From Nocardioides sambongensis (GTDB lineage Bacteria; Actinomycetota; Actinomycetes; Propionibacteriales; Nocardioidaceae): a stretch of DNA of 64,000 bases. Each line of letters starts with the position of its first letter. The first letter of the stretch is position 1. Where the stretch lies: assembly GCF_006494815.1 (NCBI RefSeq), contig NZ_CP041091.1, positions 62,001-126,000 of the forward strand. The letters run 5' to 3'. Position numbers and translations under genes: made by a program. Below the pieces are notes generated by a model, which saw only the letters and a program-made list of their open reading frames with translations, made no database searches and had not been told where the DNA came from. Positions 1 through 64,000 of the stretch are shown one piece after another.

Positions 1-594
1 CACGCTGTTCGCGGCGGCGCTGGAGCGCCTCGGCTATCCGGTACGCCGCCACCTCGGCCGGGTGCCCGCCGCCGACGGCACCCTCCAGGCGCGGACGCAC
101 ATGACCGTCGCGGTCCGCGTGGCCGACCGGTGGTGGCTGTGCGACCCCGGCTTCGGGATGAGCCTGATCCGCCCGATCCGGCTCGCCGACGGCGTCGAGG
201 CCGACCACTACGGGTGGGGCAGCAAGGTGGTCGCCGCCGACGGGATCGGCTGGTCGCTGCTGCGTCGGCGCGACGGTGAGTGGCAGCACCTGCACACCCT
301 CGACGCCCTCCGGTGGAGCCGGTCGACATCGTCGCCGGCCACCACTACACCAGCACCTTCCCGTCCTCGCACTTCCGGTCCGGGCTGATGGTCGCGCGCT
401 ACGTCGAGGACCGGCACGTCGTGCTGCGCCACGACGCGGTGACCGTGCGGCGAGCCGGTGAGCCCACCGAGCACCGGGCGCTGGCGCCGGGGGAGCTCAC
501 CGGTTGGCTGGACCGGCTCGAGGTGGCGCTGTCGGCCGACGAGCTCGGACGCCTGCTGCTGCGGGTCCGGGAGCTCGACCCGGGATCACGCTGA
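1..594 (+). pseudogene. Arylamine N-acetyltransferase, 5' end cut by the window, frameshifted
   Basis: The start and the expected active-site cysteine lie upstream of the window. Frame 2 shows the rest of the catalytic triad: His in RTHMTVAVRV and Asp in WLCDPGFG (about 88-160). The conserved C-terminal lobe (PVEPVDIV, then HHYTSTFPSSHF) continues in frame 1 from about 310 to the TGA at 592-594. One missing C in the CCC run at 306-308 would explain the switch and gives a continuous domain. The family acetylates or propionylates arylamines and hydrazines from acyl-CoA in the cytoplasm. As sequenced, frame 2 ends at 388 and the protein would lose its last third. I favour a base-calling error, because many genes here show the same kind of break, but a real recent frameshift cannot be excluded. 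Confidence 0.8.
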
Positions 595-671
595 GTCGCT
601 CCGCTGTCGCTGCTCGGCGTGTCGCCCACGGTTGGAGTGCCGGCCGCGATGCGCTTGGCACCATCCTCCCC

Positions 672-1550
672 ATGGGAAGCGGCATGAGCCCCTGGGCGGA
701 GCGAGCGGTGGAGCACCTGACCCGCACCGCGACCGGCCGTCCGCTCGACCGCTCGCTGCGGGTCACGCTGAACTTCCACCCGGACCGCGTGGCGGCAGGC
801 CGCACCGTCCTGGAGCAGCTCGCCCACGACGGGGTCTACCGGTCGCAGTTCGAGACCGGCACCAGCAACGGGGGGCTCACCGCATACCCGGAAGGGGCGC
901 GGTGGCGGTGGGAGCAACGCATCTTCGCGCATGCCTACGACGAGGCCCCGGTGGCGCAGCGGCCGAAGTACGGGGCGCTGAACCACCGCCGCCGTCGGAT
1001 CGGCGCGGCACCCCGGTTCGGGTCGGCACACCTTCGGCTGCGCGAGGCGGTGCTCGACCGCAGCACCTTCTGCTTCCCCGACTCGGTGTTCGAGCCGACC
1101 GCGATGGGAACCGCAGCTCGGTTCGACCTGTTCCCTCTGGTCGAGACGTTCGATGCCCGCGAACGCTCCGACGCCCTCGAGGCCACCGAGGGCGGGCTGC
1201 TGGACGACTACATCGAGGCACACGTGCACGGCACGGTCGCGTTGGCCGCCGACGTCGAGGCCCTCGTCCTCGATCCGTCGTTTCGCGGGACCCCCGTCGA
1301 GGAGCAGGCCAGGTCGCTCGCGCTGCCCCTGGAGTGGCACGAGGGGCGGGTCCTCACGGTGGCGACCCTGGCTGCCCATCCCGACTTCCGAGGCCGCCAC
1401 ATCGTCGACGTCGGCCACCGCGTCGCCCGCGACGGACTGCTCGATGCGGCCACGGTCGGTCGGGCGGCTCTCGCCGGAGCCGAGGATCCCCAGGACCTGA
1501 AGAAGGTCTGGCACCACGTCGCGAGGTTCGGGAGCCCGGCCGAACGCTGA
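672..1550 (+). CDS. DUF3626 domain-containing protein
   Basis: A 292-residue protein that I recognise as DUF3626 from the block LNFHPDR near residue 36 and QFETGTSNGG near residue 63. No signal peptide or membrane segment is visible, so it should be cytoplasmic. The biochemical role of the family is not established. The ATG at 672 is the first in-frame start after the NAT gene; a second ATG four codons later (684) is equally possible, and neither has a clear ribosome-binding site. The gene stands alone: the region behind it (1551-1684) leads into the TPP riboswitch, so it is not part of the thiamine operon. The frame is intact over its whole length. Confidence 0.75.
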   Translation: MGSGMSPWAERAVEHLTRTATGRPLDRSLRVTLNFHPDRVAAGRTVLEQLAHDGVYRSQFETGTSNGGLTAYPEGARWRWEQRIFAHAYDEAPVAQRPKYGALNHRRRRIGAAPRFGSAHLRLREAVLDRSTFCFPDSVFEPTAMGTAARFDLFPLVETFDARERSDALEATEGGLLDDYIEAHVHGTVALAADVEALVLDPSFRGTPVEEQARSLALPLEWHEGRVLTVATLAAHPDFRGRHIVDVGHRVARDGLLDAATVGRAALAGAEDPQDLKKVWHHVARFGSPAER

Positions 1551-1684
1551 GCGCCCACCGGGCGTTGATCGGCGTCGGGGACCGTGTCCGCGCGCTGTCG
1601 CGTCGGACCAGGACGTGCTGCCGAGCTCGGTTGGTGGACACCGGTTCGGGCCGGCCACGGGCGCGCGCTACTGTCGACGCATCC

Positions 1685-1780
1685 ACCCACGGGAGTCCGC
1701 GGCAGCGGGCTGAGAGGGAGCTGCAGCCGCTCCGACCGTCGAACCTGATCCGGCTCACACCGGCGAAGGAAGCGAAGGAG
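1685..1780 (+). promoter_or_regulatory. TPP riboswitch (THI element)
   Basis: The two conserved boxes of the thiamine pyrophosphate aptamer are present in order: GGGCTGAGAGGGAG at about 1707-1720 and GAACCTGATCCGG at 1741-1753, followed by the ACACCGGCGAAGGAAG end of the element. The structure lies directly in front of a good ribosome-binding site (GAAGGAG, ending 1780) and the thiE GTG at 1789. In this class, TPP binding usually blocks translation or transcription. The short distance to the ribosome-binding site suggests translational control of the whole thi operon. Confidence 0.93.
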
Positions 1781-1788
1781 CGAACGCC

Positions 1789-8668
<6,880 letters not shown>

Positions 8669-9790
8669 CCCCAGCAGCACCGAACCACGACCCGAGCCCG
8701 GGGACCGCGTCGACCGCGCGGCCCCGGGTCTCGGTCGGCGCCCTCGGCGGCACCATCGCCTCCACCTCCGCCGCCGGCGACGGCCACGCGGTGACACCGA
8801 CCCTCTCCGCGGACGACCTCGCCGCGGCGGTGCCCGGGCTCGCCGACCTGGCCACCCTGCGGGCCGAGACGCTGGCGATGCTGCCCAGCCCGTCCTTGGA
8901 CGAGGCGACCGTGCTGCGAGCGCTGACCTGGGCGCGGGCCGAGGTCGCGGACGGGGCCGCCGGCGTCGTACTGACGCAGGGCACCGACACCCTGGAGGAG
9001 TCGGCCTACCTGCTCGACCTCCTCTGGGACCTGCCCGAGCCCCTGGTGGTGACCGGGGCGATGCGCTCGGCGCAGGCGCCCGGTGCCGACGGCCCGGCCA
9101 ACCTGGTCGCCGCGATCTCCTGCGCGATCGCTCCCGCCGCTCGCGGGCGCGGGGTGCTGGTCGTCCTCGCCGACGAGGTGCACGCCGCGCGCTGGGTCGC
9201 CAAGACCGACTCGGTGGCCCCCGGAGCCTTCCGCTCCCCGGCGACCGGCCCGGTCGGGCGGTACGTCGAGTCCGAGGTCGCGTTCCTGGTCGGCCCTCCC
9301 GACGTCCCGGCCCCGGCCCTGCCGGTCCCGGCCCGCACCCCCGGCCCCTGGGTCCCCCTGCTGACCACCTACCTCGGCGACGACGGCCGGGCGCTGGACG
9401 CGCTCGTCGCCGCCGGTGCGGACGGGGTGGTGATCGCCGGCTTCGGGGCCGGCCACGTGTCGGCGGCGATGGCCGAGGCGGTCGGCCGCGCGGTGTCCGC
9501 GGTGCCGATCGTCTTCGCCACCCGGACCGGCGCCGGCCCCACCGGCCGGGCGCTCTACGGCTACCCCGGCTCGGAGGTCGACCTGCTGGGCCGCGGCGCG
9601 CACGGGGCCGGTTGGCTCCCCCCGGTCAAGGCGCGGCTGTTGCTGTGGACGCTGCTCGCGGGCGGGACGCGCAGCGCCGCGGGGATCCGGGAGGGGTTCG
9701 ACCGACGGGGCGGGCTCTGATCCGACACCGTTCGCGCGCGGGGGTGAGGTCGTCGATGCTCGCGGGGCTCGGCGTGCCAGGGTGGCGCCC

Positions 9791-11449: not shown

Positions 11450-11456
11450 CCCGGGG

Positions 11457-12692: not shown

Positions 12693-12765
12693 GGGGGCAA
12701 CCTACGCCCTGCGCGCCCGGTGGTCGCCGCATCGCGGTCCGAGCGGCCCACGCCGGACGGCGTCG

Positions 12766-12794: not shown

Positions 12795-12835
12795 TGGGGA
12801 ACGAGCCCGATCCCTCGGAAGGGGTGAACTGGTCA

Positions 12836-15150: not shown

Positions 15151-15151
15151 C

Positions 15152-15985
15152 ATGCGCAACAAGATCGGCATCGTCGTCGGCTGCGTCCTGATCATGATCT
15201 GGTGCCTGCTGCCGGTGGCATGGATCATCTCGCTGTCCTTCAAGTCCGAGGAGTCCATCACCAACGGCAGCCCGGGCTTCCTGCCGGCCGAGGGCGGCTT
15301 CGCCGGCTGGGACAACTACCAGGCGGTCTGGGACAACGAACAGTTCCGGAGGGCGATCTTCAACTCGATCGGGATCAGCCTGATCGCCACCGTGCTCTCG
15401 GTCATCGTGGCGACGCTGGCGGCGTACGCGATCGCCCGGCTGGAGTTCACCGGCAAGAAGGCGGTGCTCTCGCTCTCGCTGGCGATCGCGATGTTCCCGG
15501 TGGTCTCGCTGGTCGGTCCGCTGTTCGACATGTGGCGCGCGATCGGGCTCTACGACACCTGGCCCGGCCTGATCATCCCGTACATGTCCTTCACCCTGCC
15601 GCTGGCGATCTGGACCCTCTCGGCGTTCTTCCGCGAGATCCCGTGGGAGATGGAGCAGGCGGCGCAGGTGGACGGCGCCACCTCGTGGCAGGCGTTCCGC
15701 AAGGTGATCGTGCCGCTGGCGGCGCCCGGCGTGTTCACCGCGGCGATCCTGACCTTCTTCTTCGCCTGGAACGACTTCGTCTTCGGGATCTCGCTGACCT
15801 CCACCGAGAACGCCCGCCCGATCCCGGCATCGCTGTCCTTCTTCGTCGGGGCCGACCCCTTCAACCGACCGGCCTCGCTCCTGGCCGCCGGAGCCGTCAT
15901 CGCGACGATCCCGATCATCGTCATCGTGCTGATCTTCCAGCGCAAGATCGTCGCCGGCCTGACCTCCGGCGCCGTGAAGGGATGA
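15152..15985 (+). CDS. Sugar ABC transporter permease (MalG/SugB type)
   Basis: A 277-residue membrane protein with an N-terminal membrane segment (residues 5-24) and five further ones. Its EAA loop is EMEQAAQVDGATSWQAFRK, and the C-terminal part has the MalG-type AWNDFVFG. The GGAG ribosome-binding site lies within the end of the upstream gene. Together with the preceding permease and the ATPase after it, this gives a complete carbohydrate importer. Confidence 0.95.
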   Translation: MRNKIGIVVGCVLIMIWCLLPVAWIISLSFKSEESITNGSPGFLPAEGGFAGWDNYQAVWDNEQFRRAIFNSIGISLIATVLSVIVATLAAYAIARLEFTGKKAVLSLSLAIAMFPVVSLVGPLFDMWRAIGLYDTWPGLIIPYMSFTLPLAIWTLSAFFREIPWEMEQAAQVDGATSWQAFRKVIVPLAAPGVFTAAILTFFFAWNDFVFGISLTSTENARPIPASLSFFVGADPFNRPASLLAAGAVIATIPIIVIVLIFQRKIVAGLTSGAVKG

Positions 15986-16037: not shown

Positions 16038-17251
<1,214 letters not shown>

Positions 17252-17285
17252 GGCTCGGCTCCGCACGGGTCTCACGGCGCCGGGC

Positions 17286-17312
17286 ACCGGGCCTCAGGGG
17301 TTCGAGGGCCCG
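17286..17312. terminator. Possible bidirectional terminator hairpin
   Basis: CCGGGCCTC (17286-17294) can pair with GAGGGCCCGG (17303-17312) with one bulged G around an eight-base loop. It lies between the end of the importer operon and the convergent hydrolase gene. There is no T run. Confidence 0.35.
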
Positions 17313-17315
17313 GCT

Positions 17316-18242
17316 TCAGCTGACCGGAGGCCGGGTGCCGAAGGTGCGGTCCGCGTTGCGTCGGATCGCGGCGGTGAAGGTGTCGTACAGGGCGGCCGGC
17401 AGGTCGTGCCCCATCCCCGTGATCAGCACCAGCTCGGCGCCGTGCGCGGCCGCGGCGGTGGCCCGTCCACCGGAGACGTCGACCATCTTGTCGGCCGTCC
17501 CGTGCAGCACCAGCACCGGCATGGTGAGCGACCCCAGCGCCTTGGTGCGGTCGGGCTGGGTGGTGATCGCGGCCATCTGCCGCAGCACGCCGGCCGGGTC
17601 CACCCCACGGTCGAAGGTGTCCCCGGCCCGCCGGCTCAGCGCCGCGTCGTCGCCGGGGTAGGCGGGGGAGCCGATCACCTTCCACAGCCGCAGGCTGGAC
17701 TCCACGTAGGCCTCCCGGGTGTCGCGGCGGCGACGGAAGAGCATCGGCAGCAGCTGCGGGTGCTGGTGGCCGACGCTGCGCCGACCCGTGGTCGACATGA
17801 TGCTGGTCAGGCTGAGCACCCGCTCCGGCGCGGCGATCGCCATGCTCTGCGCGATCATCCCGCCCATCGACGCCCCGGCGACATGGGCGGCCGGGATGCC
17901 GAGGTGATCGAGCAGACCGAACGCGTCCTGGGTCAGGTCCGCGATCCGGTACGGCGTGGGCGCGCGGCCGGTCAGAAAGCCACGCGCGAGCGTGCCCATG
18001 CCCAGCGCCGGCCCGCGCGTGGTGGAGCGCCCGATGTCGCGGTTGTCGTAGCGGATCACGAAGAAGCCCGCGGCCGCCAGCCGCCGGCACAGCTGCTCGT
18101 CCCACCAGATCATCGGTCCGCCGAGGCCCATCACCAGCAGGAGTGGGTCGTCGTCGGGGTCGCCGAAGGTCTGGTAGCAGAGCTCGATGCCGTTGCGCAG
18201 GGGCGCGAAGAGCTCCTCGGAGGCGCTCACCTCGATCGTCAT
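17316..18242 (-). CDS. Alpha/beta hydrolase
   Basis: A 308-residue alpha/beta-fold hydrolase. The oxyanion region is LLLVMGLGGPMIWWDEQL, the nucleophile elbow is GASMGGMIAQ (Ser near residue 138), and the acid and His come from VLHGTADKMVD and ITGMGHDLP. GxSMGG and the overall pattern resemble the aclacinomycin methylesterase RdmC group found in many actinobacteria. The substrate is unknown. No signal peptide. It diverges from the lipase-like gene at 18292 with 49 bases between the starts. Confidence 0.88.
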   Translation of the reverse strand: MTIEVSASEELFAPLRNGIELCYQTFGDPDDDPLLLVMGLGGPMIWWDEQLCRRLAAAGFFVIRYDNRDIGRSTTRGPALGMGTLARGFLTGRAPTPYRIADLTQDAFGLLDHLGIPAAHVAGASMGGMIAQSMAIAAPERVLSLTSIMSTTGRRSVGHQHPQLLPMLFRRRRDTREAYVESSLRLWKVIGSPAYPGDDAALSRRAGDTFDRGVDPAGVLRQMAAITTQPDRTKALGSLTMPVLVLHGTADKMVDVSGGRATAAAAHGAELVLITGMGHDLPAALYDTFTAAIRRNADRTFGTRPPVS

Positions 18243-18291
18243 GCGTCCCAGTGTGCCGAATGGGGTTTGCGTCGCGTTTCAACGACGTAAC

Positions 18292-33402: not shown

Positions 33403-34088
33403 TCACGGGGTGATCGCGGCGGCTCCCAGCAGGTCGGCGGCGGCCGGGTCCTGCGGCGCCCGGCGCCCCCACAGTGTCAGCAGCACGTCCGCGGCGGGGC
33501 CGGCCACGACGCCGTACGGCTCGCCGGTGCCGAGGTCAAGGGTCTCGTCGAGATCGGTCGCCTCCAGCCGCAGGGTGCCGGCCAGGGGCTCGGTGCGGCC
33601 CAGGCGGACCTGGCGCGGATAGAACATCGTCGCCACCTCGGCGACGCCGTCCCAGGCGAGCTCGGGGTCGATGTGCCACTCCGCCTCGCGTCCCAGGGCA
33701 CCCAGGGCGTCGCGCAGGTGCAGCGTGACCTCGTGCACCTGCCGCCGCCGCCAGAACCCGACCGTCCGGTCGCTGCCGAAGGTCCACGCCTCCGCATGCG
33801 GCTCGGCGTCCCGCAACACGTCGAGCAGGTGCTCGGCGGCGGAGACGTAGGCGGAGACCAGCGCGTCCCGGTCGAGTCCGACCGGTGGTACGACGCCGTC
33901 GGGGTTGCGCTCGGTGATCGCGTGCGCCCCCACCAGTGCACCTCGCGGACGTGCTCCACCAGGCCGGCCAGGGTCCACTCGGGACAGGCGGGCACCGGGA
34001 TCGCGAGGTCGGGGGCGGCGGCGACGACCTCGACGAAGTCGTCGATCGCCGCGTCGAGCAGGTCGGTCCACTCCGGTACGTCGGGCAT
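33403..34088 (-). pseudogene. Maleylpyruvate isomerase family mycothiol-dependent enzyme, frameshifted
   Basis: The MDMPI-type DinB fold is clear. The N terminus (VPEWTDLLDAAIDDF, then PACPEWTLAGLVEHVREVHWWG) is in one frame from the ATG at 34088. The rest (HAITERNPDGVVPP, then RRRQVHEVTLHLRDA with the metal-binding His pair, to the end) is in the next. One missing base in the five-base C run at 33927-33931 explains the break; with it the protein is about 228 residues. Members use mycothiol or a bound metal for small-molecule conversions; the substrate is unknown. Mycothiol use fits the organism. I regard the frameshift as a probable sequence error. Confidence 0.85.
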
Positions 34089-37629: not shown

Positions 37630-39260
37630 TCAGACCTGGCGCGCCTGGCCGTCCCAGTACGGCTGGCGCAGGTCGCGTTTGAGGATCTTGCCGGTGGGGT
37701 TGCGGGGCAGCGCCTCGATGATGTCGACGGACTTCGGCGCCTTGAAGTGCGCCAGCCGCTCCCGGGTCCACGCGACCAGCTCGTCGCCGGTGACGGCGCC
37801 CTCCTCCTTCAGCGCCACCACCGCCTTCACGGCCTCGCCCCAACGCTCGTCGGGCACGCCGATCACGGCCACCTCCAGGACGGAGGGGTGCTCGGAGAGC
37901 ACCCGCTCGACCTCGGGGGAGTAGACGTTCTCACCGCCGGTGATGATCATGTCCTTGAGCCGGTCGGAGACGAAGACGTAGCCGCCGGCGTCCACGTGAC
38001 CCATGTCCCCGGTCCTGAACCAGCCGTCGTCGGTGACCACCTTCGCGGTCTCCTCCGGCTTGTTGAGGAAGCCGGTCATCAGCTGCGGCGTGCGCAGCCA
38101 GATCTCGCCGTGCTCGCCGGTCGGCTGGTCCTCGCCGGTGGCGGGGTCCACGATCCGCACCTCGACCTCCGGGATCGCCTTGCCGGCGGAGAGGAGCCGC
38201 TCGGGGTGGCCGTCGGCCTCCGCGTTGCGGTGGTCCTCGGGCATCAGGTGGGTGGCCACGCCGGCGACCTCGGTGAGGCCGTAGACCTGGATGAAGTCGG
38301 TGTCCGGCCAGGCCTCCATCGCGGCCCGCAGCAGCGGCGGCGGCATCGGCGCCGCCCCGTAGGTGTAGGTCTTCAGCGCCCCGAAGAGCTTGACCGCGTC
38401 CGGGCCCGCCTGGAGCACCTGGGCGAGCACCGCCGGCACCAGGAAGGTCCGGTTGGCGCCGGCCAGGATCGCGCCGGCGAGCGAGGCGGCATCGGGCTCG
38501 CGGGTCATCACGCTGGGCACGCCGTCGTGGATGCCGAAGAGGACGTAGGAGGAGCCGCCCACGTGGAAGAGCGGCATCGCCACCATCGACTTGTCGCCCT
38601 CGTCGAAACCCCAGCCGTCGTGGGCGTTGACGGTGTGGCTGACCATGTTGCGGTGGGTCAGCATGACGCCCTTGGGGCGTCCGGTGGTGCCCGAGGAATA
38701 CATGATCAGGCAGACGTCGTCCTCGAGGACGTCCGGCCCGTCCTCGACGACCGGCGCGTCGGCCAGGAACTGCTCGTACTCGTCGCCCGGTGCGCCGTCC
38801 GGGGTCACCGAGATGATCCGCTCCACCTTGGGCAGCCGGTCCCGGATCGCCTCGATGGTCGGCATCAGCTCGGCGCCGACGAAGAGCACCCGCGCCCCGG
38901 AGTCGTTGACCGCGTAGTCGATCTCGTCGCCGGCCGAGCGCCAGTTGATGATCGCGTTCGCCGCGCCGATCGACCCCGCGGCGAGGGAGATCTCCACGCA
39001 GGCGGGGTGGTTCTTGTCCAGGAACGAGACCACGTCGCCGCGGGCGATGCCGAGGTCGCGCAGGCCCCCGCCGCGCGGTGCACGCGCTCGTGCCACTCGC
39101 GCCAGGTCCAGCTCCGGTCGAGGTAGGTCATCGCCTCGCCGTCGGGGTCGGCCGCCGCCCAGTGGTTCAGCCGGTCGTCGACGTACGTCGGCTCCGGGGG
39201 AGTGCTGGGGGGCCAGGCATCGGCAGGGGCGTGGGCGATGGGGTCGCTCGTGGAGGTCAC
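37630..39260 (-). pseudogene. AMP-dependent acyl-CoA synthetase/ligase, frameshift near the N terminus
   Basis: ANL-superfamily enzyme that activates a carboxylic acid via acyl-AMP. The P-loop MYSSGTTGRPKGVMLTHRN, the VYGLTEVAG block, GWFRTGDMGHVD and the C-terminal lysine in PRNPTGKILKRDL are all present. The first 60 residues (DRLNHWAAADPDGEAMTYLD, TWREWHERVHRAAG) are in another frame and join the body through one missing base in the five-base C run at 39065-39069. The repaired protein has about 543 residues, normal for fatty-acid or similar ligases. The GTG at 39260 is the likely start; a second GTG lies at 39284. Substrate unknown. Probable sequence error rather than decay. Confidence 0.88.
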
Positions 39261-39391
39261 CCCGGTGATTGTGGTGGAGGTCACACGCCGGCACAAGCGA
39301 ATCGGACAGGTGTGCCGATCGCTGGACGGGGTCCGCGGGGTCCGCTGGTGCCCGGTGCCGGTGGCTCCGGGCTGTGACAGTTGCTTCTGGC

Positions 39392-40042: not shown

Positions 40043-41322
<1,280 letters not shown>

Positions 41323-53402: not shown

Positions 53403-54358
53403 CCGCCGCCCCCGATCCGCAGCCCGATCCGGACCGCGGACCCACGATCCGTGAGGTCGGTCCCGAGGCGGCCGCCGAGGTCCTGGCCGTGGTGCGGGCC
53501 GCGTTCGGCGACCGGCCGCCGCTGGACCCGCCCACCGACGCCCTGACCGAGACCGTCGAGAGCCTGGCCGCCAAGCTCGACGCCCTCGGCGGGCTGGTGG
53601 TCGACCTGGACGGCGAACCCGTCGGCGCAGTGGTCCTCGACCCGGTCGACGACGCCGTCTACCTGCGCCGCTTCGGGGTGGCGCCCGCCGCCCGCGGTCA
53701 CGGCGTGGCGCGCCGTCTGGTCGCCGCCGCGGCCGAGGTCGTGGCCCGCCGGTGCCCCGCCGCGGACCGGCTGGTGGTGCTGGCCCGGGAGGAGCTGCCC
53801 CGCACCATCGCCTTCTGGCGCGACAACGGCTTCACCGAGGTCGCCGAGCACGCGCCCTACCGCGAGCTGGCCCGCGCGCTGCCCCGCTGCTACGACGTAC
53901 CGGCGGCCGAGGACATGCGGGACCTGGCGCGTCGGCTCGCTGCGGTGCTGGCTCCGGGCGACGTCCTGGTGCTGACCGGTGAGCTGGGGGCTGGCAAGAC
54001 GACGTTCACCCAGGGGCTGGGGGAGGGCCTGGGCGTCCGCGGCGGGGTCACCTCCCCGACCTTCGTGATCGCCCGGGTGCACCCGTCGCTGACCGCCGGC
54101 CCGGCGCTGGTGCACGTCGACGCCTACCGCCTGGACGGGGCTCCCGAGCTGGACGACCTCGACCTCGATGCGGACCTGGACCGTGCGGTCACCGTGGTGG
54201 AGTGGGGCGAGGGCCTGGCCGAGGCGCTCAGCGACTCGCCCCTGCAGGTGCGCATCGACCGGGCCGTCGCCGCCCCCGACGCGGACCCCGACGACGACCC
54301 GCGCCGCGTGACCGTGCTCCGCCACGGCCCCCGGTGGGCCGGGGTCCGGCTGCCCTGA
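53399..54358 (+). CDS. tsaE: GNAT acetyltransferase fused to TsaE (t6A complex ATPase)
   Basis: 319 residues with two domains. Residues 14-160 form a GNAT acetyltransferase (IREVGPEAAAEVLAVVR, then VYLRRFGVAPAARGHGVARRLV as the acetyl-CoA loop, FWRDNGFTEV). Residues 170-319 are TsaE: P-loop GELGAGKTTFTQGLGEGLG, TSPTFVIARVH, HVDAYRLDG and VVEWGEGL. TsaE drives t6A37 formation on tRNA with TsaB and TsaD, encoded downstream. There is no stop or start between the domains. Function of the GNAT half is unknown; it is distinct from RimI encoded at 55057. Confidence 0.93.
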   Translation: MTAAPDPQPDPDRGPTIREVGPEAAAEVLAVVRAAFGDRPPLDPPTDALTETVESLAAKLDALGGLVVDLDGEPVGAVVLDPVDDAVYLRRFGVAPAARGHGVARRLVAAAAEVVARRCPAADRLVVLAREELPRTIAFWRDNGFTEVAEHAPYRELARALPRCYDVPAAEDMRDLARRLAAVLAPGDVLVLTGELGAGKTTFTQGLGEGLGVRGGVTSPTFVIARVHPSLTAGPALVHVDAYRLDGAPELDDLDLDADLDRAVTVVEWGEGLAEALSDSPLQVRIDRAVAAPDADPDDDPRRVTVLRHGPRWAGVRLP

Positions 54359-54421
54359 GGCGGGAGCCCCGACGGGGTGCCGGTCACTCCTCGCCGCGCG
54401 CGTCGAGGCTAGGCTCGACTC

Positions 54422-55060
54422 GTGCTGCTCGCCTTCGACACCGCGTCCCCGACGGTGACCGTGGCCGTCCACGACGGCGCCCGAGTGATCGCCGAGCGCA
54501 CCAGTGAGCAGACCATGCGGCACGGTGAGCAGCTCGCCCCGCTCATCGAGCAGGCGCTGGCCGAGGCCGGCACCACCCCGGCCGGCCTGACCGCCATCGC
54601 GGTCGGGGTCGGCCCCGGACCCTTCACCGGGCTGCGGGTGGGACTGGTGACCGCGCGCACCCTCGGGCACGTGCTCGGCATCCCGGTGCACGGCGTCTGC
54701 TCCCTGGACGCGCTCGCGGTGCATGCCGTCGCCACCGGCACCGTCGAGGGAGCCTTCCAGGTCGCCACCGACGCCCGCCGCAAGGAGGTCTACCTGGCCG
54801 CCTACGACGGGTCCGGACGTCGCAGCGCCGGGCCGGTCGTGGAACGGCCCGCCGCGGTGGGCACCGACCTGCCGGTGGTGGGGGAGGGCGCGGCGCTCTA
54901 CCCGGACGCCTTCGGCGACCCCCGCGAGCCGCTGCGTCCCGCGGCGGCCTGGATCGCGGTCGCGGTGCACGAAGGGCGCGCCGAGGTCCTGGCCCCGGAG
55001 CCGCTCTACCTGCGGCGCCCCGACGCCGAGATCCCGCGGGCTCCGAAGCCGGTCTCGTGA
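54422..55060 (+). CDS. tsaB: tRNA t6A synthesis protein TsaB
   Basis: Inactive ASKHA-fold partner of TsaD. 212 residues with [34 protein letters not shown] (family signature) and [20 protein letters not shown] at 54422 has no clear ribosome-binding site; a gap of 63 bases separates it from tsaE. The stop overlaps the rimI GTG (GTGA). Confidence 0.95.
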
Positions 55061-55530
55061 TCCCTGCGGTGCGGCTGCGGCCGGCCGTTCCGGACGACGT
55101 CGCCGCGGTGGCGCGGGTCGACGCGGAGGCCTTCGGGGCCGACGCCTGGTCCGCGACCCTGCTGCGGGACCTGGTCGACGCCGACCTCGCCCGTGGCGAG
55201 CTGGTGCTGGCCGTCGCCGCGGACGGCGGCCTCCTCGGCTATGCCGTGCTCAGCGCGGTCGGCGAGGACGCCGAGCTGCAGCGGATCGCCGTCCTGCCGG
55301 CCGCCCGGCGCCGCGGTGTCGCCGGGGCCCTGCTGGCCGCCGGCCGGGACCGGGTACGGCGGGCCGGCGCCACCCGGCTGCTGCTCGAGGTGCGAGCGGA
55401 CAACGCCGCCGCGCTCGCCCTCTACGCCGGCGAGGGGTTCGCCGAGATCGGGCGGCGACCCCGCTACTACCGCGACGGCACCACCGCCGTGATCCTGGAG
55501 CATCCCATCGACGTCACAATGGAGGCGTGA
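55057..55530 (+). CDS. rimI: Ribosomal-protein-alanine N-acetyltransferase RimI
   Basis: 157-residue GNAT protein that acetylates the N terminus of ribosomal protein S18 in model bacteria. Acetyl-CoA loop: [21 protein letters not shown]-terminal [19 protein letters not shown] is the RimI-type GF(x)xxxxRxxYY. The position between tsaB and tsaD is conserved in actinobacteria. Confidence 0.93.
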
Positions 55531-55532
55531 GC

Positions 55533-56600
55533 ATGCGCGACGAACCCCTGGTCCTCGGCATCGAGACGTCCTGCGACGAGACCGGCGTCGGCATCGTCCG
55601 CGGCCAGACGCTGCTCGCCGACGCGGTCGCCTCGAGCGTGGAGCAGCATGCACGGTTCGGCGGCGTGGTCCCGGAGGTCGCGAGCCGGGCGCACCTGGAG
55701 GCGATGGTGCCGACCATCCAGCGCGCCTGTGACACCGCGGGTGTCGCCCTCGGCGACGTCGACGCGATCGCGGTCACCCACGGCCCCGGTCTCGCCGGAG
55801 CACTGCTGGTCGGCGTCGCCAGCGCCAAGGCGCTCGCGCTCGGGCTCGGGAAGCCGCTCTACGGGGTGAACCACCTCGCCTCCCACGTCGCGGTCGACCA
55901 GCTCGAGCACGGCCCGCTGCCCGAGCCGTGCCTGGCGCTGCTGGTCTCCGGCGGACACTCCAGCCTGCTGCGGGTCACCGACATCACCGGGGACCACGGT
56001 GAGGGTGCCGGCGTGGACCCGATGGGCTCCACGATCGACGACGCGGCGGGTGAGGCGTTCGACAAGGTCGCCCGGCTGCTCGGCCTGCCGTTCCCCGGCG
56101 GCCCGCACATCGACCGGGTGGCCCGGGAGGGCGACAGCGTGGCGATCGACTTCCCGCGCGGGCTGACCAGCCGCCGCGACCTCGAGCGGCACCGGTTCGA
56201 CTTCTCCTTCTCGGGCCTGAAGACCGCGGTCGCCCGGTGGGTGGAGGCGAAAGAGCGCGCCGGCGAGACCGTCCCCGTGGCCGATGTGGCCGCGTCGTTC
56301 CAGGAGGCCGTGTGCGACGTACTGGTCCGCAAGGCGTTGGACGCCGCGGCCAGCGAGGGGATCGAGGACCTGATGATCGGTGGCGGGGTCGCCGCCAACT
56401 CGCGGCTGCGCGCGATGGCCGAGGAGCGGGCGGCGCGTCTCGGCGTCCGGGTGCGGGTGCCCCGACCGGGCCTGTGCACCGACAACGGCGCGATGGTGGC
56501 GGCACTCGGCTCGACGATGGTGGCGCGCGGACGCCACGCCTCGCCGATGGACCTGCCCGCCGACTCGAGCCTTCCGGTCACCGACGTCCTGGCCGGCTGA
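55533..56600 (+). CDS. tsaD: tRNA N6-adenosine threonylcarbamoyltransferase TsaD
   Basis: Catalytic subunit of t6A synthesis. Metal-binding His pair in [10 protein letters not shown], with the ASKHA blocks [69 protein letters not shown] and [11 protein letters not shown]. 355 residues. GGAGG (55521-55525) favours ATG at 55533 over the overlapping GTG at 55527. In many actinobacteria groES-groEL follow; here the operon ends with a terminator. Confidence 0.97.
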
Positions 56601-56672
56601 GTCAGGTTCCCCGATGGGGGCGCGCAGTAGCCGAGAATCGGTGACTCCAGGCTGAGCCGCCCGACGACACCG

Positions 56673-56700
56673 AGGGCCGGCCACGTCCGTGGCCGGCCCT
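56673..56700. terminator. Bidirectional terminator after tsaD
   Basis: AGGGCCGGCCA and TGGCCGGCCCT form a perfect 11-base stem around the loop CGTCCG. It is placed between tsaD and the convergent secretion-substrate gene ending at 56725. Confidence 0.82.
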
Positions 56701-56724
56701 GGCGTGCATTCGTGCTGAGGACGG

Positions 56725-57996
56725 TCAGTCGATGACGCCCGGATACTGCCCGTCGTCCTCGGTCCAGTCCTCGTCGGCCTCGTAGGTCTGCGCCTCGCGG
56801 TCTCGGTCGTCCTGCTTGCGACCGCGGCCGCCGGCGCTGCCGACACCCGTGCCGCCGCGACCAGCCCCGCCACGTCCGGCGGCACCCGCACCACGCCCGG
56901 CCGCACCAGCACCGCGCCCGGCCGCACCGCGCCCGACCGCCTGACCCGGTACGCCGGCTCCGCCGCGACCGCCCAGCACACCGCTACCCGCCCGCGGGGA
57001 CACCCCGCCGATGGGTCGCGCGGTCGCCTGCCCGGGGACCGCGACCGGCCGTGCCACGGCTGCGTTCGCCGCGGCCCGCGCGCCGATCCCGCCGAGGACG
57101 CCCGCGCCGACACCGGCACCGACCTGGGCCGGTCCGCCGACACCACCGGGTCCGCCGACGCCACCGGGACCGCCGGGGTCGACCGGCTGCACCCCGATCG
57201 GAGTCGACGGGTCGCGGACATCGGGACCGCCGACGTCCGGGTCGCGGACGTCGGGGTCGCGGACATCGGGGTCGCGGACATCGGGGTCGCGCACATCGGG
57301 GTCGCGCACGTCGGGGTCGCGGACATCGGGGTCGCGCACGTCGGGGTCGCGCACGTCGGGGTGGCGGACGTCCGGATCCGTCGGGTACGGGCGGATCGGG
57401 GGCCGCGCTCCGACCGGCGGGACGGTGCCCGGTCCGCGTCCGCCGGGGTCCTCGGTGTCATCGGTCGGCTCGCCGTGGATCTTGGCGAGCACCACGATCG
57501 CCTCCTGGTAGGAGGTGTTGAGGGCGACCACCTTCTGCCGGGCCCGCTCGTCGGCGTCGCCGTAGGCGCTGACCTGCTGCTGGTGGTGCCGCATCTTGTT
57601 GGCGAACACCTTGAGGACCTGCACCTCGTCCTGCTCGTCGGTCATCGGCCCGGGCGTCGGCGCCGGCCCCGGGCTGTCGGGCATGCCGTCGTTGACCGCG
57701 CGGGAGGTGCGCATCTGGGAGGCGACGTCGGTCAGCGCCTCGTTCGCCTCGACCATCAGGACGCGCTGGTCGTGCAGCACCTTCTCGATGCGGCGGAGCT
57801 TGGCCAGCGCCATCCGGGTCACCTCGGAGTCCTCGCCGAACCCGCGACGGATGCCGTCCTTGGCCTTCGTGACCGAGTTCTCGGTGCGCTGCAAGGCGTT
57901 GGCCGCGTTGAGCCAGGCCCGCGCGGACTTCTCGACGTCGGTGGGGTGCATGCCCGTCACCGAACGCCGCAGGTGGTCGATGTTCTGGCCGGGCAT
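56725..57996 (-). CDS. Type VII secretion substrate-like protein with DPDVR repeats
   Basis: 423 residues. Residues 1-165 are strongly helical (HPTDVEKSARAWLNAANALQ, IRRGFGEDSEVTRMALAKL, VLMVEANEALTDVASQM) and resemble PPE/WXG100-type helical hairpins. Residues about 205-265 consist of pentapeptide repeats DPDVR encoded by a 15-base minisatellite. The rest is Gly-rich (GGPGGVGGPGGVGGPAQVG, then GRGAAGRGAGAAGRGAG) with an acidic end. No signal peptide. GGAGG ahead of ATG 57996; overlaps the upstream partner gene by one base (TGATG). I infer a secreted or surface-linked partner pair; no secretion machinery is in the window. Confidence 0.72.
   Translation of the reverse strand: MPGQNIDHLRRSVTGMHPTDVEKSARAWLNAANALQRTENSVTKAKDGIRRGFGEDSEVTRMALAKLRRIEKVLHDQRVLMVEANEALTDVASQMRTSRAVNDGMPDSPGPAPTPGPMTDEQDEVQVLKVFANKMRHHQQQVSAYGDADERARQKVVALNTSYQEAIVVLAKIHGEPTDDTEDPGGRGPGTVPPVGARPPIRPYPTDPDVRHPDVRDPDVRDPDVRDPDVRDPDVRDPDVRDPDVRDPDVRDPDVGGPDVRDPSTPIGVQPVDPGGPGGVGGPGGVGGPAQVGAGVGAGVLGGIGARAAANAAVARPVAVPGQATARPIGGVSPRAGSGVLGGRGGAGVPGQAVGRGAAGRGAGAAGRGAGAAGRGGAGRGGTGVGSAGGRGRKQDDRDREAQTYEADEDWTEDDGQYPGVID
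57211..57375 (-). repeat. 15-base minisatellite coding for DPDVR
   Basis: Eleven head-to-tail units of exactly 15 bases on the plus strand (consensus GTCGCGGACATCGGG, with variants GCGCAC and ACGTC). Inner units differ by one or two changes; the outer ones more. It lies in frame in the gene at 56725. Confidence 0.93.
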
Positions 57997-58460
57997 CAGA
58001 GGTCGCCTCCGGGGTGCTGCTGGGCGTTCTCGTTCGCATGCTGGGTGTTGCTGCCGTGGGTGCCGCTGTCGATCGCCGAGATGAACTCGGTGACCAGCGT
58101 GAAGTCCTCGGCGGCCTGGGCGTCGCTCTCGGTGAGGATGTCGCGGGCCTGCTGGCAGGCGGCGACGAAGTCCTGCAGGTCGGTCTCGACCCCGCCGAGG
58201 GTCTCGTCGACGACCTGGTAGGCCCGGGTGTGGTGGATGCCGAGGCTGGAGGCGTAGTCGCCGCCACCGAAGGAGGTCTCGCTGATCTCGCCCTCCCGCC
58301 GGAACGTCTGACGCTCGTTCTGCTCCAGCTCCTCCTGGACCTGGCTGATCACGCCGCGGATCTCCTCGTCGACGATCTCGATGTCGGAGAGGACCCGCTG
58401 CGGGGTCTTGGCTTGGGTGATGAACGACATCAGGTCGTCCAGGTATGGATTGACTGACAC
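57996..58460 (-). CDS. WXG100/ESX-like helical protein
   Basis: 154 residues, mostly helical, without signal peptide or membrane segment. Helix 1 (IEIVDEEIRGVISQVQEELEQ) leads to a turn SFGGGDYASSLGIHHTRAYQ with FGG in place of WxG, followed by helix 2 (VVDETLGGVETDLQDFVAAC, continuing QQARDIL). An acidic, Gln/Asn-rich tail follows. The form fits type VII secretion substrates, which act as pairs; the partner is probably the product of the overlapping downstream gene. GTG start at 58460. Function unknown. Confidence 0.7.
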   Translation of the reverse strand: MSVNPYLDDLMSFITQAKTPQRVLSDIEIVDEEIRGVISQVQEELEQNERQTFRREGEISETSFGGGDYASSLGIHHTRAYQVVDETLGGVETDLQDFVAACQQARDILTESDAQAAEDFTLVTEFISAIDSGTHGSNTQHANENAQQHPGGDL

Positions 58461-58585
58461 GGCTCTCTGCTCCCCGAGTGCGTGGATCGATGGGATGGCG
58501 ACGCCCGGGTGGATGCCGAACGGCGCGACGTCCGGCCACTTACCCGACGCGATCCGCCTACAAACGCTGCCTCTAGGCTAATCGC

Positions 58586-59179
58586 GTGCGCTCTCGGACC
58601 ATCGCGCTGACGGCGATCGTCGTGCTCCTGCTCGCCGGCTGCGGCGGTGGGAGCAGTACGCCCGCGGCGGATCTCCCCGCCGATGCCACCTCGTCGGCCG
58701 GCGGCGAGGGGACCGTGGCCACCGCCGATCCCGAGACTCCCGCCGTCCCGCCGGCCACCGGCAGGCGGGTGATCGCCGACGGAGTATCCGAGCCGGGCCT
58801 CACCTACCGCCTCCCGGAGGGCAGGTGGGTCGGTGGCGGCACCGAGCTGGCGACCCGCTACGACCGGTTCGGGCAGACCGCGATCAGCCACGGAGCCCTC
58901 GCCTACGGGGACGTCAGCCTGACCCGGCTGGCGAACCTCGCGCTCGGTCTCTACGACTGGCCGCGGTCGGCCGAGATCGAGCGGACCGCGGACCGCACGG
59001 TCGCCGGGAGCGACTGGTACGTGATCGAGGCGAAGGACCGCGAGCGCGGCTTCGAGTACCGCCTCGGCACCGTCCGCGACGCGGACAACTCCCACGAGCT
59101 GGTCTTCTCGTTCCCGAAGGAGACAGCCGAGGCCCGCCAGATGATCGAGTCGGTGCTCGCCACCGTCGCGTGGCGCTGA
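58586..59179 (+). CDS. Hypothetical lipoprotein
   Basis: 197 residues with a clear lipobox LLAGC (Cys19) followed by GGGSS and a Thr/Ala-rich spacer. The outer domain ([23 protein letters not shown], then [20 protein letters not shown]) is not one I recognise. GTG at 58586 lies close to TAGGCTAAT (58575-58583), which may be a -10 box, so the mRNA may be nearly leaderless. Shares its upstream region with the helical protein gene at 58460. Confidence 0.72.
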
Positions 59180-59268
59180 GCGCGGTCGACACCGGGCGCC
59201 CTGACCCGCCCACGACGGCTCCCCGCTACGTTGATCCTGCAGCGCGCACCCGTCGACGAGGAGGAACC

Positions 59269-60390
59269 ATGCAGCAGGTCAGGGCCGTTGTGGCCCGCGC
59301 CAAGGGCGCACCGGTCGAGCTCACCACGATCAATGTCCCGGACCCAGGGCCGGGGGAGGCGGTGGTGAAGGTCCAGGCGTGCGGGGTGTGCCACACCGAT
59401 CTGCATTATCGCGAGGGTGGGATCAACGACGAGTTCCCGTTCCTGTTGGGTCATGAGGCCGCGGGCGTGGTCGAGGCGGTGGGTGAGGGGGTCACCGATG
59501 TGGCGCCGGGCGATTTCGTGGTGTTGAACTGGCGTGCGGTGTGTGGGGAGTGCCGGGCGTGTAAGCGGGGGGAGCCGAAGTACTGCTTCGCCACGCACAA
59601 CGCGACCCAGAAGATGACGTTGGCCGAGGGGCCCGATGCCGGGACCGAGTTGTCGCCGGCGTTGGGGATCGGTGCGTTCGCGGAGAAGACGCTGGTCGCT
59701 GCGGGTCAGTGCACCAAGGTCGACCCGCAGGCGCGTGCGGCCGCGGTCGGTCTGCTCGGTTGTGGTGTGATGGCCGGGATCGGCGCGGCGATCAACACCG
59801 GTGGGGTCACTCGGGGTAGGTCGGTGGCCGTGATCGGTTGTGGCGGGGTGGGTGTGGCCGCGATCGCGGGGTCGGCGTTGGCGGGTGCTTCGCCGATCAT
59901 TGCCGTGGACATCGACGCCAACAAGCTCGCGGCCGCGAAGCGGATGGGTGCCACGCACACGGTGGATTCCTCTGCCGGGTCCGGCCTGGATCCGGTCGAG
60001 GAGATCAAGCGGATCTGTGCCGAGACCTATGAGGGTGCCGAGGGTGCCGACGTGGTGGTCGAGGCGGTGGGGCGTCCGGAGACGTGGAAGCAGGCCTTCT
60101 ACGCCCGTGACCTGGCCGGGACGGTGGTGCTGGTCGGTGTGCCGACTCCGGAGATGAAGGTGCCGGAGCTGCCGTTGATCGATGTCTTCGGTCGTGGTGG
60201 GGCGTTGAAGTCGAGTTGGTACGGCGACTGCCTGCCCTCTCGTGACTTCCCGATGCTGGTGGATCTCTATCGTCAGGGTCGGTTGGATCTGGATGCGTTC
60301 GTGACCGAGGAGATCGGGATCGGTGACATCGAGGCCGCGTTCGAGAAGATGCACCACGGCGACGTACTCCGCTCGGTGGTGGTCCTCTGA
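59269..60390 (+). CDS. mscR: S-(hydroxymethyl)mycothiol dehydrogenase
   Basis: Zinc-dependent medium-chain dehydrogenase of formaldehyde detoxification; it may also reduce S-nitrosomycothiol. Catalytic zinc: Cys in [12 protein letters not shown] and His in [14 protein letters not shown]; structural zinc: [15 protein letters not shown]. Nucleotide fold: [15 protein letters not shown]. 373 residues. GAGGAGGAA precedes ATG 59269. Codon use differs from neighbours: from about 59400 to 60330 many codons end in T or use TTG, which lowers third-position GC. The stop overlaps the MBL-fold gene by one base. Confidence 0.94.
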
Positions 60391-61055
60391 TGGCCGGGGA
60401 CACGGCTGGGGCTGGGAGCCTGCGGGTGGACCATGCGGTCACCTCGGGCACGTTCAGCCTGGACGGGGAGACCCACCAGGTCGACAACAACATCTGGGTG
60501 CTCGGGGACGACACCGAGTGCGTGGTGATCGACGCTCCGCACTCGGTCGAGGACATCCTCGCGGTGGTGGGGGAGCGCACGGTGAAGGCGATCGTGCTCA
60601 CCCATGCCCACGACGACCACTGCCGACAGGCGCCCGCGCTGCGGGAGGCGGTGAACGGCGGGTCCGGGGCGCCGATCCTGCTGCACCCCGAGGACCGGCC
60701 GCTGTGGGAGCTGACCCACGGTGGTGCGGAGGACCCGGATGCCACGCTGTGGGACGTCGACCTCGCCGACGGGCAGGTCCTCGAGGTGGCCGGGGCGCAG
60801 GTCCGGGTGATCCACACGCCGGGACACGCGCCGGGAGCGGTCTGCCTCTACGTGCCGGACCTGGGTGTGTTGTTCACCGGCGACACGTTGTTCAACGGTG
60901 GCCCCGGCGCGACCGGCCGGTCGTTCTCGGACCGGCCCACGCTGGAGGCATCGATCCGGGCGAGCCTGTTCGGGCTGCCGGAGGAGACCGTGGTGCACAC
61001 CGGGCACGGGGACGACACCACCATCGGAGCCGAGGCGGCGGCGCTCGGCCGCTGA
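60390..61055 (+). CDS. MBL-fold metallo-hydrolase, partner of mycothiol dehydrogenase
   Basis: 221 residues with the metal motif THAHDDHC, then HTPGHAPGAVCLY, FTGDTLFNGGPGATG and VHTGHGDDTTIG, a glyoxalase II-like pattern. It follows mscR directly (TGATG overlap), an arrangement common in actinobacteria. The likely job is hydrolysis of S-formylmycothiol, the product of the dehydrogenase, to release formate and mycothiol. That role is inferred from context. Confidence 0.9.
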   Translation: MAGDTAGAGSLRVDHAVTSGTFSLDGETHQVDNNIWVLGDDTECVVIDAPHSVEDILAVVGERTVKAIVLTHAHDDHCRQAPALREAVNGGSGAPILLHPEDRPLWELTHGGAEDPDATLWDVDLADGQVLEVAGAQVRVIHTPGHAPGAVCLYVPDLGVLFTGDTLFNGGPGATGRSFSDRPTLEASIRASLFGLPEETVVHTGHGDDTTIGAEAAALGR

Positions 61056-61080
61056 CCTCCCGACACTTCGACGCAAGAGC

Positions 61081-61116
61081 GAGCGGCCAGGACCCGATGT
61101 CGGGTCCTGGCCGCTC
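61081..61116. terminator. Bidirectional terminator hairpin
   Basis: GAGCGGCCAGGACCCG (61081-61096) pairs perfectly with 61101-61116 around the loop ATGT. The 16-base stem is between the MBL gene and the convergent MMPL gene. Confidence 0.85.
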
Positions 61117-61117
61117 G

Positions 61118-61189
61118 GTGCGTCCGGGTCGCTCGCGCTCAGTGCGTCCGGGTCGCTCGCGCTCAGTGCGTCCGGGGCGCTCGCGCTCA
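61118..61189. repeat. Three tandem 24-base repeats at the end of the MMPL gene
   Basis: Three head-to-tail 24-base units begin at 61118, 61142 and 61166; units 1 and 2 are identical and unit 3 has one change. The end of unit 3 supplies the TGA of the MMPL gene on the minus strand, so the other units carry an identical TGA in the same phase. Directly next to a terminator hairpin. Confidence 0.92.
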
Positions 61190-63379
61190 GTGCTCCAGCG
61201 GCTCCGGCACCTCCTGCTTCTTCTCGTCCCCGTGCCCGGGCCACCAGGCCGCGTGCCCGATCAGTGCGGTCAGGGCCGGGGTGAAGAACATCGCCATCAC
61301 GAAGGCCGCGATCAGGATGCCGACGGAGAGCGCGAAGCCCATCGACTCGAACAGCGCGTTGCCGCCGAGCATCAGGGAGGCGAAGGTCCCGGCCAGGATC
61401 ACCCCGGCCGCCGCGATCGTCGGTCCGGCGTGCTTGACCGCCTCCGCGGCCGCCTCGCGCGGCTCCCGCCCTTCGCGTGCCTCCTCGCGGAGCCGGGCGA
61501 TCATCAGGATGTTGTAGTCCGTGCCGAGCGCTGTGACGAACAGGTAGATGTAGATCGGCAGCATGAAGATCAGCCCCGCCTCACCCTGGATGTGCTGGAA
61601 CACGATCACCGAGGCACCCAGCGTCGCGGCGAAGCCGAGCCCGACCGCGGCCATCAGGTACCAGGGAGCCACCAGGCTGCGCAGCAGCAGCGCCAGGATG
61701 ATCATGATCACGATCGCTGCCGCCGGGAAGACCACCGAGTAGTCGCGCTCCATCGCGTCCTGCAGGTCCGCGAAGACCGACGGCGTGCCGCCGACGAACG
61801 CCTCGGTGCCCTCGGGTGCAGCCTCGTGGGCGACGTCGCGGATCGGGCCCTTGACGTCCTGGAGCGCCTGGTCGGAGACCGGGTCGCTGTCGAGGACCAG
61901 TGAGATCTGGGCGGCCGAGCCGTCCTCGGAGATCTGCGGAGGATAGACCTGACTGACGCCCTCGGCCTCGGCGAGGGCGGCGGCGTAGGTCTCCAGCTCC
62001 TGCTGGTCCAACGTGCCACCGTCGGACTCCACGATCACCGGCACCGGCTCGGTCTGACCGGCCGCGAAGTGCTCCTGGAAGGTCTCCAGCGCCTCGGTGG
62101 ACTCCACGTCCTTCGGCAGGCTGGAGGAGAAGTCGAAGGACGGGTTGAAGCCGAGCGCGAAGACGGCGAGAGCCGCCATCACCAGGCCGGAGGCGAGCGC
62201 GTGCACCGCCGGCCGCTTGCCCAGGCGACGGCCGAGGGCACCGAAGCGGGCTGCCTCGGGCTCCCTGCGCCAGCTCTTCGACGGCCAGAACACGGCCCGG
62301 CCGAGCACCCGCACCGTCGCCGGCACCAGGGTGAGCGCCGCGACCAGGGTGACACCGACGGCGATCGCCAGGGCGGGGCCGATCGCCTTGAAGATGCTCA
62401 GCGAGCTCAGCAGCAGCGCCAGGAAGGCCACGATCACCGCGCCGCCGGCCGAGGCGATCGCCTCACCGGCCCGCTCGATCGCGTACTCGACGCCGTTCTT
62501 GACGATCGCGCGGCGGGTCACCGGGTCGGACATCGCCGAGTCGCCCTGCTCCGCGACCAGGTGGCGCAGGCGCTCGCGGTAGCGGAAGAGGAAGAAGAGG
62601 ATGTAGTCGGTGCCGATGCCGTAGAGCACCACCACCAGGATCGCCTCGATCGAGCTGTCCGCCTGGAGTCCGAAGATCTCGTTCGCCCAGCTGATCAGGC
62701 CGTTGGCCACCACCGAGACCAGACCGACCAGCACCACCGGCATCAGGCAGATGACCACGCTGCGGAAGATCAGTGCGAGCAGGCCGACGATCAGCACGAT
62801 CGTGGCGATGGCGACGATGGCCAGGGTCTGCTCGCTGGACTCCTGCGAGTCGAGTCCCTGCGGCACCGACCCGGTGCTCTGCACGCTCAGGTCGGTGCCC
62901 TCGACGAGGTCGTCCAGGTCCGACCTCAGGTCCTCGGCGTCCTCGAAGGCCTGCGGGTCGAAACCGGTCGCTCCCTCGGCCAGCCCGACGATGCCCAGCT
63001 GGACCTGGCCGTCCTCGGAGACGTTGGGGTTCCCCTGGGGGTCGGTGGTGACGACCTGCTGGACGAAGGTCTCGGCGCCCAGCTCGGGCCCGAGCTCCTC
63101 GGCGATCCGGGTGACCTCGGCCTGGTCGTCCTCGGTGAGCGCCTCGCCGTCCTCGCGCTCGAAGACCAGGATCGCGGCCGGAGAGGTGGCGCCGGGGAAC
63201 TTCTCGGCCTGCAGCTCGATGGCCTGGACCGACTCGTAGTGGTCGGGCAGGAACTCCGACTCCTCCGACGTCGTCTGCAGGGCAGGCGCGAAGGCCGCGA
63301 CCAGGACGGCGAGCACCAACCAGGTGCCGATGACGTACCAGGGATGGTGGGCGATGAAGCGACCGAGAGACCTGAACAC
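61187..63379 (-). CDS. MMPL/RND family transporter
   Basis: 730 residues with twelve membrane segments in two halves, each with an outer domain after the first segment of the half. Membrane blocks YGIGTDYILFFLFRYRERLR and ALGTDYNILMIARLREEARE are the paired GTDY motifs with the proton-relay Asp and Tyr in helices 4 and 10. Family members export lipids or lipid-linked compounds to the envelope, or drugs. The start is GTG at 63379 (VFRSLGRFIAHHPWYV); the open frame upstream of it (to 63418) is not conserved. The substrate is unknown. Confidence 0.94.
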   Translation of the reverse strand: MFRSLGRFIAHHPWYVIGTWLVLAVLVAAFAPALQTTSEESEFLPDHYESVQAIELQAEKFPGATSPAAILVFEREDGEALTEDDQAEVTRIAEELGPELGAETFVQQVVTTDPQGNPNVSEDGQVQLGIVGLAEGATGFDPQAFEDAEDLRSDLDDLVEGTDLSVQSTGSVPQGLDSQESSEQTLAIVAIATIVLIVGLLALIFRSVVICLMPVVLVGLVSVVANGLISWANEIFGLQADSSIEAILVVVLYGIGTDYILFFLFRYRERLRHLVAEQGDSAMSDPVTRRAIVKNGVEYAIERAGEAIASAGGAVIVAFLALLLSSLSIFKAIGPALAIAVGVTLVAALTLVPATVRVLGRAVFWPSKSWRREPEAARFGALGRRLGKRPAVHALASGLVMAALAVFALGFNPSFDFSSSLPKDVESTEALETFQEHFAAGQTEPVPVIVESDGGTLDQQELETYAAALAEAEGVSQVYPPQISEDGSAAQISLVLDSDPVSDQALQDVKGPIRDVAHEAAPEGTEAFVGGTPSVFADLQDAMERDYSVVFPAAAIVIMIILALLLRSLVAPWYLMAAVGLGFAATLGASVIVFQHIQGEAGLIFMLPIYIYLFVTALGTDYNILMIARLREEAREGREPREAAAEAVKHAGPTIAAAGVILAGTFASLMLGGNALFESMGFALSVGILIAAFVMAMFFTPALTALIGHAAWWPGHGDEKKQEVPEPLEH

Positions 63380-63500
63380 GGTGACTGACGTTAGTGGCAG
63401 CGACCCGCCCCGCGACACCGACTTTAGGCTGCAGACGACGGACCGGAGTCGATGCGACCACGGGCTCGCACCACTGGTCGCGGCGGGTTAGCGTCGAACG

Positions 63501-64000
63501 GTGAGTGAGGGCTACTTCCCCGAAGGCTCGATGCTGCGCCACGTCCAGTCGCACCGCGGCGCGCTCGACCGGGACGAGGGGAGATATCCCCGCGGCACGC
63601 CGTACGACGCCTTCGACCCGGCGTTGATGCTGTGGGCGATGGCGATGCTCGCGGACTCCTCGCGGGTCGCCTTCGAGACGCTGGTGCGGCCGCTGACCAC
63701 GGGGGAGCGCGAGGACCTGTGGGCCGACTGGGTCAGGTTCGGGGCGCTCTTCGGGATGCCGGAGTCGGTCGCCCGCCTCGGCGGGGGCGACCGAGCAGTG
63801 GATGCGGGACTGGTACGACGGCGGCCGGATGCACCTGACCGAGGAGGCCCGGGTGGTCGGTCGTGCGATCGCCACCGACATGCCGGTCCCGTGGCCGATG
63901 ACCCCCGGGATCAAGCTGACCAACCTGACCGTCACCGGCATGCTGCCGCCCGCGGTGCGCCACCTCTTCGGGCTGCGCTGGACCCCCGCCCACGAGGTGG
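63501..64000 (+). pseudogene. MpaB-like (DUF2236) oxygenase family gene with internal deletion and frameshift, cut by the window end
   Basis: GTG at 63501 starts SEGYFPEGSMLRHVQSHR, the normal N terminus of actinobacterial DUF2236 proteins. The next residues (GALDRDEGRYPRGTPYDAF, then DPALMLWAMAMLADSS) belong about 65-80 residues further on in the family, so the segment with the membrane-side helix and the first haem-region His is missing. After FGMPESVA the frame changes at the five-base G run 63783-63787 (one base too many) and continues with EQWMRDWYDGGRMHLTEEAR and FGLRWTPAHEV to the end of the window. The frameshift may be a sequencing error, but the deletion removes a core part, so the gene is probably inactive. 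Confidence 0.7.

Follow-up and report, generated by a model that had tools for sequence, protein, structure and literature searches.

In the 64,000-nucleotide stretch of Nocardioides sambongensis DNA analyzed here (the window; positions 62,001 to 126,000 of one 4,434,294-base contig with a GC content of ~73%), ten places were reported at which a gene changes reading frame, and four of them fall in thiE and thiS. This raises the question of whether the organism carries broken genes or the record carries wrong bases. A first-pass annotation had described nine one-base losses in seven genes and one surplus G, and had considered systematic base-calling error their likely source. The ten breaks are indeed present in the sequence (nine according to a coding model and eight according to homologs or split Pfam matches), and the count of nine in seven genes was right. 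We conclude that they are almost certainly base-calling or consensus errors left in a single-contig assembly and that the organism itself carries intact genes. The evidence that discriminates between error and mutation comes from outside the window, since the association of the breaks with C/G runs fits both. Twenty relatives were searched, 12 of them from the same genus. Among named genomes, the best matches to ThiG were mostly from Nocardioides and other Propionibacteriales, and the window's own record is possibly absent from that set.

Frame breaks were sought with a reference-free seven-state coding model (one state per reading frame and one for intergenic sequence, with frame jumps allowed at low probability), which was trained on stretches from the N. 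sambongensis genome and four relatives without protein references. Each jump was scored as the log-likelihood gain (LLR) in the surrounding 5 kb divided by the number of jumps in that 5 kb. When one-base indels were planted in control stretches, 249 of 288 were found (126/144 deletions and 123/144 insertions) and the type was right in 244; the sensitivity of the model was taken from these as 0.87. The model placed ten jumps in the window, eight with an LLR of at least 5 and seven of at least 10, one of them a jump at 6070 that was later rejected. Eight of the ten jumps match nine of the reported sites (306, 1821, 2255, 3731 together with 3769 as one net shift, 17219, 33927, 39065, and 63783), and no jump was called at 8575. 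Homology searches were less complete: an early blastx search with few references outside the thi region gave two of the window sites, plus two weak pairs in other places, and an automatic scan limited to same-genus references detected 2255 alone among the ten window sites.

The first break lies on the forward strand at 306 to 313 in an arylamine N-acetyltransferase-type gene with pieces at 2–310 and 313–594. The model jump is at 310, the blastx frames join at 313, the alignment with one Nocardioides relative spans the jump, and the Pfam match to Acetyltransf_2 (PF00797) is split into 55–156 and 164–227. The ThiE gene, also on the forward strand, is broken twice. Its N-terminal break (1821 to 1831, with the model jump at 1831) is too terminal for a Pfam split and was assigned from the coding signal and its position, with the N termini of relatives compared by eye. 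At the second (2255 to 2267; pieces 1833–2261 and 2264–2410), 34 reference proteins align across the break and TMP-TENI (PF02581) is split into 12–144 and 152–180. In ThiS (start at 3637, forward strand), two breaks at 3731 to 3773 appear in the model as a net shift at 3724. Three-frame translation, examined by eye against the ThiS-like small proteins of relatives' thi loci, places the N terminus, the middle, and the Gly-Gly tail in three different frames.

Of the remaining sites, three are on the forward strand and two on the reverse strand. In a hypothetical protein (7926–8585, forward), the break near the C terminus at 8575 to 8585 came from homolog comparison; P0003, the sole homolog found besides the window itself, has a tail that is encoded here in a different frame. 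A MalK-type ABC ATPase (16056–17216, forward; Pfam ABC_tran and OB_MalK) is broken in its C-terminal tail at 17216 to 17222. Like the N-terminal break in ThiE, this one is supported by coding signal, and its LLR of 170 is high because the given frame continues as a 750-codon ORF (16038–18290) over an antisense predicted gene at 17316–18242; this frame is an example of the false long proteins that arise in the record. On the reverse strand, an MDMPI-type gene (33403–34088) is broken at 33927 to 33935 (model jump at 33934, LLR 14; MDMPI_N, PF11716, split into 4–40 and 73–139), and an AMP-binding enzyme (37630–39284) is broken near its N terminus at 39065 to 39074. The jump in the latter, at 39073, shares a low LLR of 6 with a rejected jump at 40045 and is weak, as is the first part of its split match to AMP-binding (PF00501; 2–33 with an E value of 0.099, and 36–384). 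The tenth site, of insertion type, is at 63783 to 63792 in a forward-strand mpaB/Lcp oxygenase-like gene that extends from 63501 to the window end (model jump at 63791, LLR 24; MPAB_Lcp_cat, PF09995, split into 78–140 and 160–219).

The proposal that each repair restores a conserved protein end finds no support at 17219, where the ABC ATPase tail is not conserved in the nearest homolog; for ThiS, the comparison list had been pre-filtered for a Gly-Gly end, so the conservation of the tail provides no independent count. Two further model jumps were rejected as breaks, each lying close to the boundary between two consecutive genes. At 6070, ThiD is an open 269-codon ORF (5360–6169) that relatives match to about residue 235–250. 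At 40045, a gene that we take from its sequence to encode citrate synthase meets a stop in its own frame.

The frequency of breaks elsewhere in the chromosome was estimated from forty 20-kb stretches at near-even steps (800 kb in total). These contained 100 breaks with an LLR of at least 5, comprising 89 of deletion type and 11 of insertion type, and 78 breaks with an LLR of at least 10. The corresponding numbers in 1.52 Mb from five same-genus control genomes (G001, G003, G005, G011, and G012) were 23 and 6. Random stretches of G012 (500 kb) account for 16 of the 23 control calls, one of which exceeds 10; these look like model noise because half are of insertion type and only 1/16 is near a run. 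The break density is 0.125 per kb in both the window and the 800-kb sample, and the counts per 20-kb stretch are near Poisson (mean 2.5, variance 2.9), as would arise if errors were distributed almost randomly across the parts of the chromosome that were sampled. Subtraction of the control rate gives ~415–487 breaks per chromosome, or 477–560 when the sensitivity of 0.87 is considered, and the chromosome-wide total is therefore estimated at about 400–560 breaks, ~0.1 per kb. A separate homology scan, using proteins of same-genus relatives only, covered 183.5 kb of the N. sambongensis genome and detected 12 frame breaks, all within 60 bases of model jumps. The same scan of two control genomes detected none in the 111.6 kb and 102.2 kb covered, so the comparison with related genomes, which the first-pass annotation had put forward as a check, favors error. 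Its observation that stops are lacking also extends beyond the window, with no in-frame stops in the homology-covered sequence of N. sambongensis (183.5 kb) or of the two control sets.

Breaks in the chromosome sample are concentrated near base runs. A G/C run of at least four lies within 12 bases of 56/100 breaks, compared to 15.7% of 20,000 random coding positions (P = 3e-20). Jumps placed at randomly planted indels were near such runs in 15.9% (deletions) and 15.4% (insertions) of cases; the model is therefore not pulled toward runs, and the association is real. Runs are not the whole story, because 44/100 breaks have no G/C run of at least four within 12 bases, and 12/100 have no run of at least three. 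The typical error would be the loss of one base within or next to a short C/G run. The restriction to C and G had been offered as an argument against mutation and is weak in that role. True slippage mutations favor runs too, and only 0.7% of random coding positions in this genome have an A/T run of at least three nearby, so the C/G-run pattern alone cannot part error from mutation. The surroundings of the breaks (±100 bases) are slightly richer in GC (0.742 versus 0.723, P = 1e-4). Failed short-read polishing at the GC-richest places was considered as a source of this difference, which is suggestive and leaves the sequencing platform undecided; the platform was probably a long-read one, and the raw reads would be expected to disagree with the record.

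The position of breaks in genes needed for life is more informative. Conserved coding stretches, defined as those matched by relatives' proteins, contain 0.157 breaks per kb (30 in 190.8 kb) versus 0.126 elsewhere (83 in 659.2 kb; P = 0.31). Among the affected genes is dnaA, located at 3.46 Mb and broken mid-protein: the NCBIfam model runs over 16–339 in one frame and 345–436 (of 437) in another, which places the ATPase and DNA-binding domains in different frames. The DnaA DNA-binding family has a single match in the genome, and four relatives each have one open frame of at least 514 amino acids. The murF gene is also broken mid-protein (NCBIfam match split into 1–239 and 242–417 of 418) and occupies one frame in three relatives. 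The five Mur-ligase matches in the genome correspond in NCBIfam to murC, murD, murE, murF, and folC, with no second murF among them. Breaks were also found in ilvC, pyruvate kinase, the glutamate synthase small subunit, ftsQ, and the C terminus of FtsZ. The products of dnaA and murF are needed for bacterial life. With both genes present in single copy and broken mid-protein, a cell with the sequence as written could hardly live; the most reasonable reading is thus that the sequence is wrong at these points, as it would also be at breaks of this class within the window. Together with the chromosome-wide density, the near-absence of breaks in five same-genus genomes, and the equal rate in conserved genes, these results support the original assignment to systematic base-calling error.

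Stretches without strong breaks qualify this picture. The stretches containing the S10 and rpoBC genes (40 kb) have no break with an LLR of at least 5, where ~5 would be expected, or ~3.7 after scaling for run density (6.0 and 6.6 G/C runs of at least four per kb, versus 6.8 to 10.75 in the other N. sambongensis stretches listed). The deficit is mild and unexplained and could hint at selection; the larger conserved-gene comparison gives no sign of such selection. A 20-kb stretch at the start of the contig (1–20000) also has no break with an LLR of at least 5. Its selection as the presumed origin was rejected given the location of dnaA at 3.46 Mb, and it was dropped from the essential-gene argument; the "essential" group in the computed comparisons still included it. 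In the cell-division cluster, breaks were called near the N termini of rsmH and murE (positions 15943 and 12528 of stretch L153). The rsmH call is weak, three jumps sharing an LLR of 7.8, and later starts might bypass both breaks. Mur-ligase-family matches number 7–8 in three relatives; two extra matches that are close to each other there were not found here.

Real decay of the thiamine operon, with thiE and thiS as true pseudogenes in a thiamine-importing strain and the other breaks in the window as a few unrelated mutations, is highly improbable. The clustering is what makes it attractive, as five breaks lie within the first 3.5 kb, four of them in thiE and thiS and the other 1.5 kb upstream, an arrangement with a probability of 0.008 for one given 64-kb window at 0.125 breaks per kb. 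Pathway loss is also plausible in the genus, where thiC (at 6400–7920 in the window) was found in 4/12 genomes, one of the 12 being only 85% complete, and de novo thiamine synthesis seems patchy. Against this, such a cluster has a probability of 0.40 of occurring somewhere in the chromosome, and the 800-kb sample has the same density of breaks. The presumed thiO, thiG, thiD, and thiC genes have open frames and matches in relatives, and the thiamine pyrophosphate (TPP) riboswitch is unchanged. True pseudogenes would also be expected to show premature stops beside their frameshifts and to be dispensable, yet the 183.5 kb covered by homology contains no such stops and the breaks are not confined to dispensable genes.

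It is extremely unlikely that the DNA is correct and that the organism reads hundreds of genes, including dnaA and murF, through one-base shifts produced by slippage of RNA polymerase or the ribosome at short C/G runs. Such reading would jointly explain the chromosome-wide density, the equal rate in conserved genes, and the broken essential genes, but the two same-genus controls have no such breaks in 213.8 kb covered. Relatives' proteins occupy a single frame at the sites compared, including the 12 homology-confirmed breaks, so a shift is not kept among them. The runs here are mostly 3–5 long, whereas slippage in transcription, according to the available text of PMC3711429, often takes place at runs of at least eight or at two shorter runs in combination. 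Run length was the one feature measured near the breaks, and no additional shared motif stood out. A mutator strain with many true run-length deletions would fit the general preference of slippage for runs and the dispersal of breaks over the chromosome, but is equally hard to credit, as selection would spare essential genes, yet conserved genes are equally affected and single-copy dnaA and murF are broken.

Assembly error, as the preferred explanation, has precedents. In the accessible part of the Kastor paper (PMC12007338), a long-read Pseudomonas assembly contained <2000 detected indel errors, with deletions commonest after runs of four to five, and correction reduced pseudogenes from 23.3% to 5.6%. 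There, as here, short-run deletions yield many false pseudogenes, single-copy orthologs included; that genome, unlike this one, has a GC content of 59% and its A/T runs were hit most, rather than C/G runs in a background of ~73% GC. The authors of the GeneTack survey, in the portion of PMC3711429 available, expect that singleton frameshifts validated by BLAST are sequencing errors. The breaks described here resemble those singletons, being frame transitions identified from coding statistics, checked with BLAST or Pfam, and lacking counterparts in relatives; the survey spans 1106 genomes, and the present data concern one genome with an estimated several hundred breaks. A narrow literature search for a paper on the genome record itself found none. 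The frame breaks are not to be read as biology, and they represent nothing beyond a known kind of assembly error.

The defect is invisible to the completeness score, which is listed as 99.98% in the N. sambongensis record. Based on 400–560 breaks and our estimate of roughly 4,200 genes, up to ~1 gene in 8 may be broken or split on paper, some genes carrying several breaks. Claims from this record that thiamine, isoleucine-valine, or cell wall pathways have been lost would be unsafe.

Two smaller observations concern the thiamine genes. The TPP riboswitch 5′ of thiE (1679–1788, forward strand; Rfam RF00059) scores 49.5 bits, under the Rfam gathering score of 54.3, and escapes scans at that level. 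The low score raised the suspicion of a base lost from the riboswitch, which was rejected because relatives, which score 55.5–61.1 bits, have aptamers of equal length, as revealed by an alignment with seven relatives. In one relative (G003), the thiC match contains one TGA within the aligned stretch (L093).
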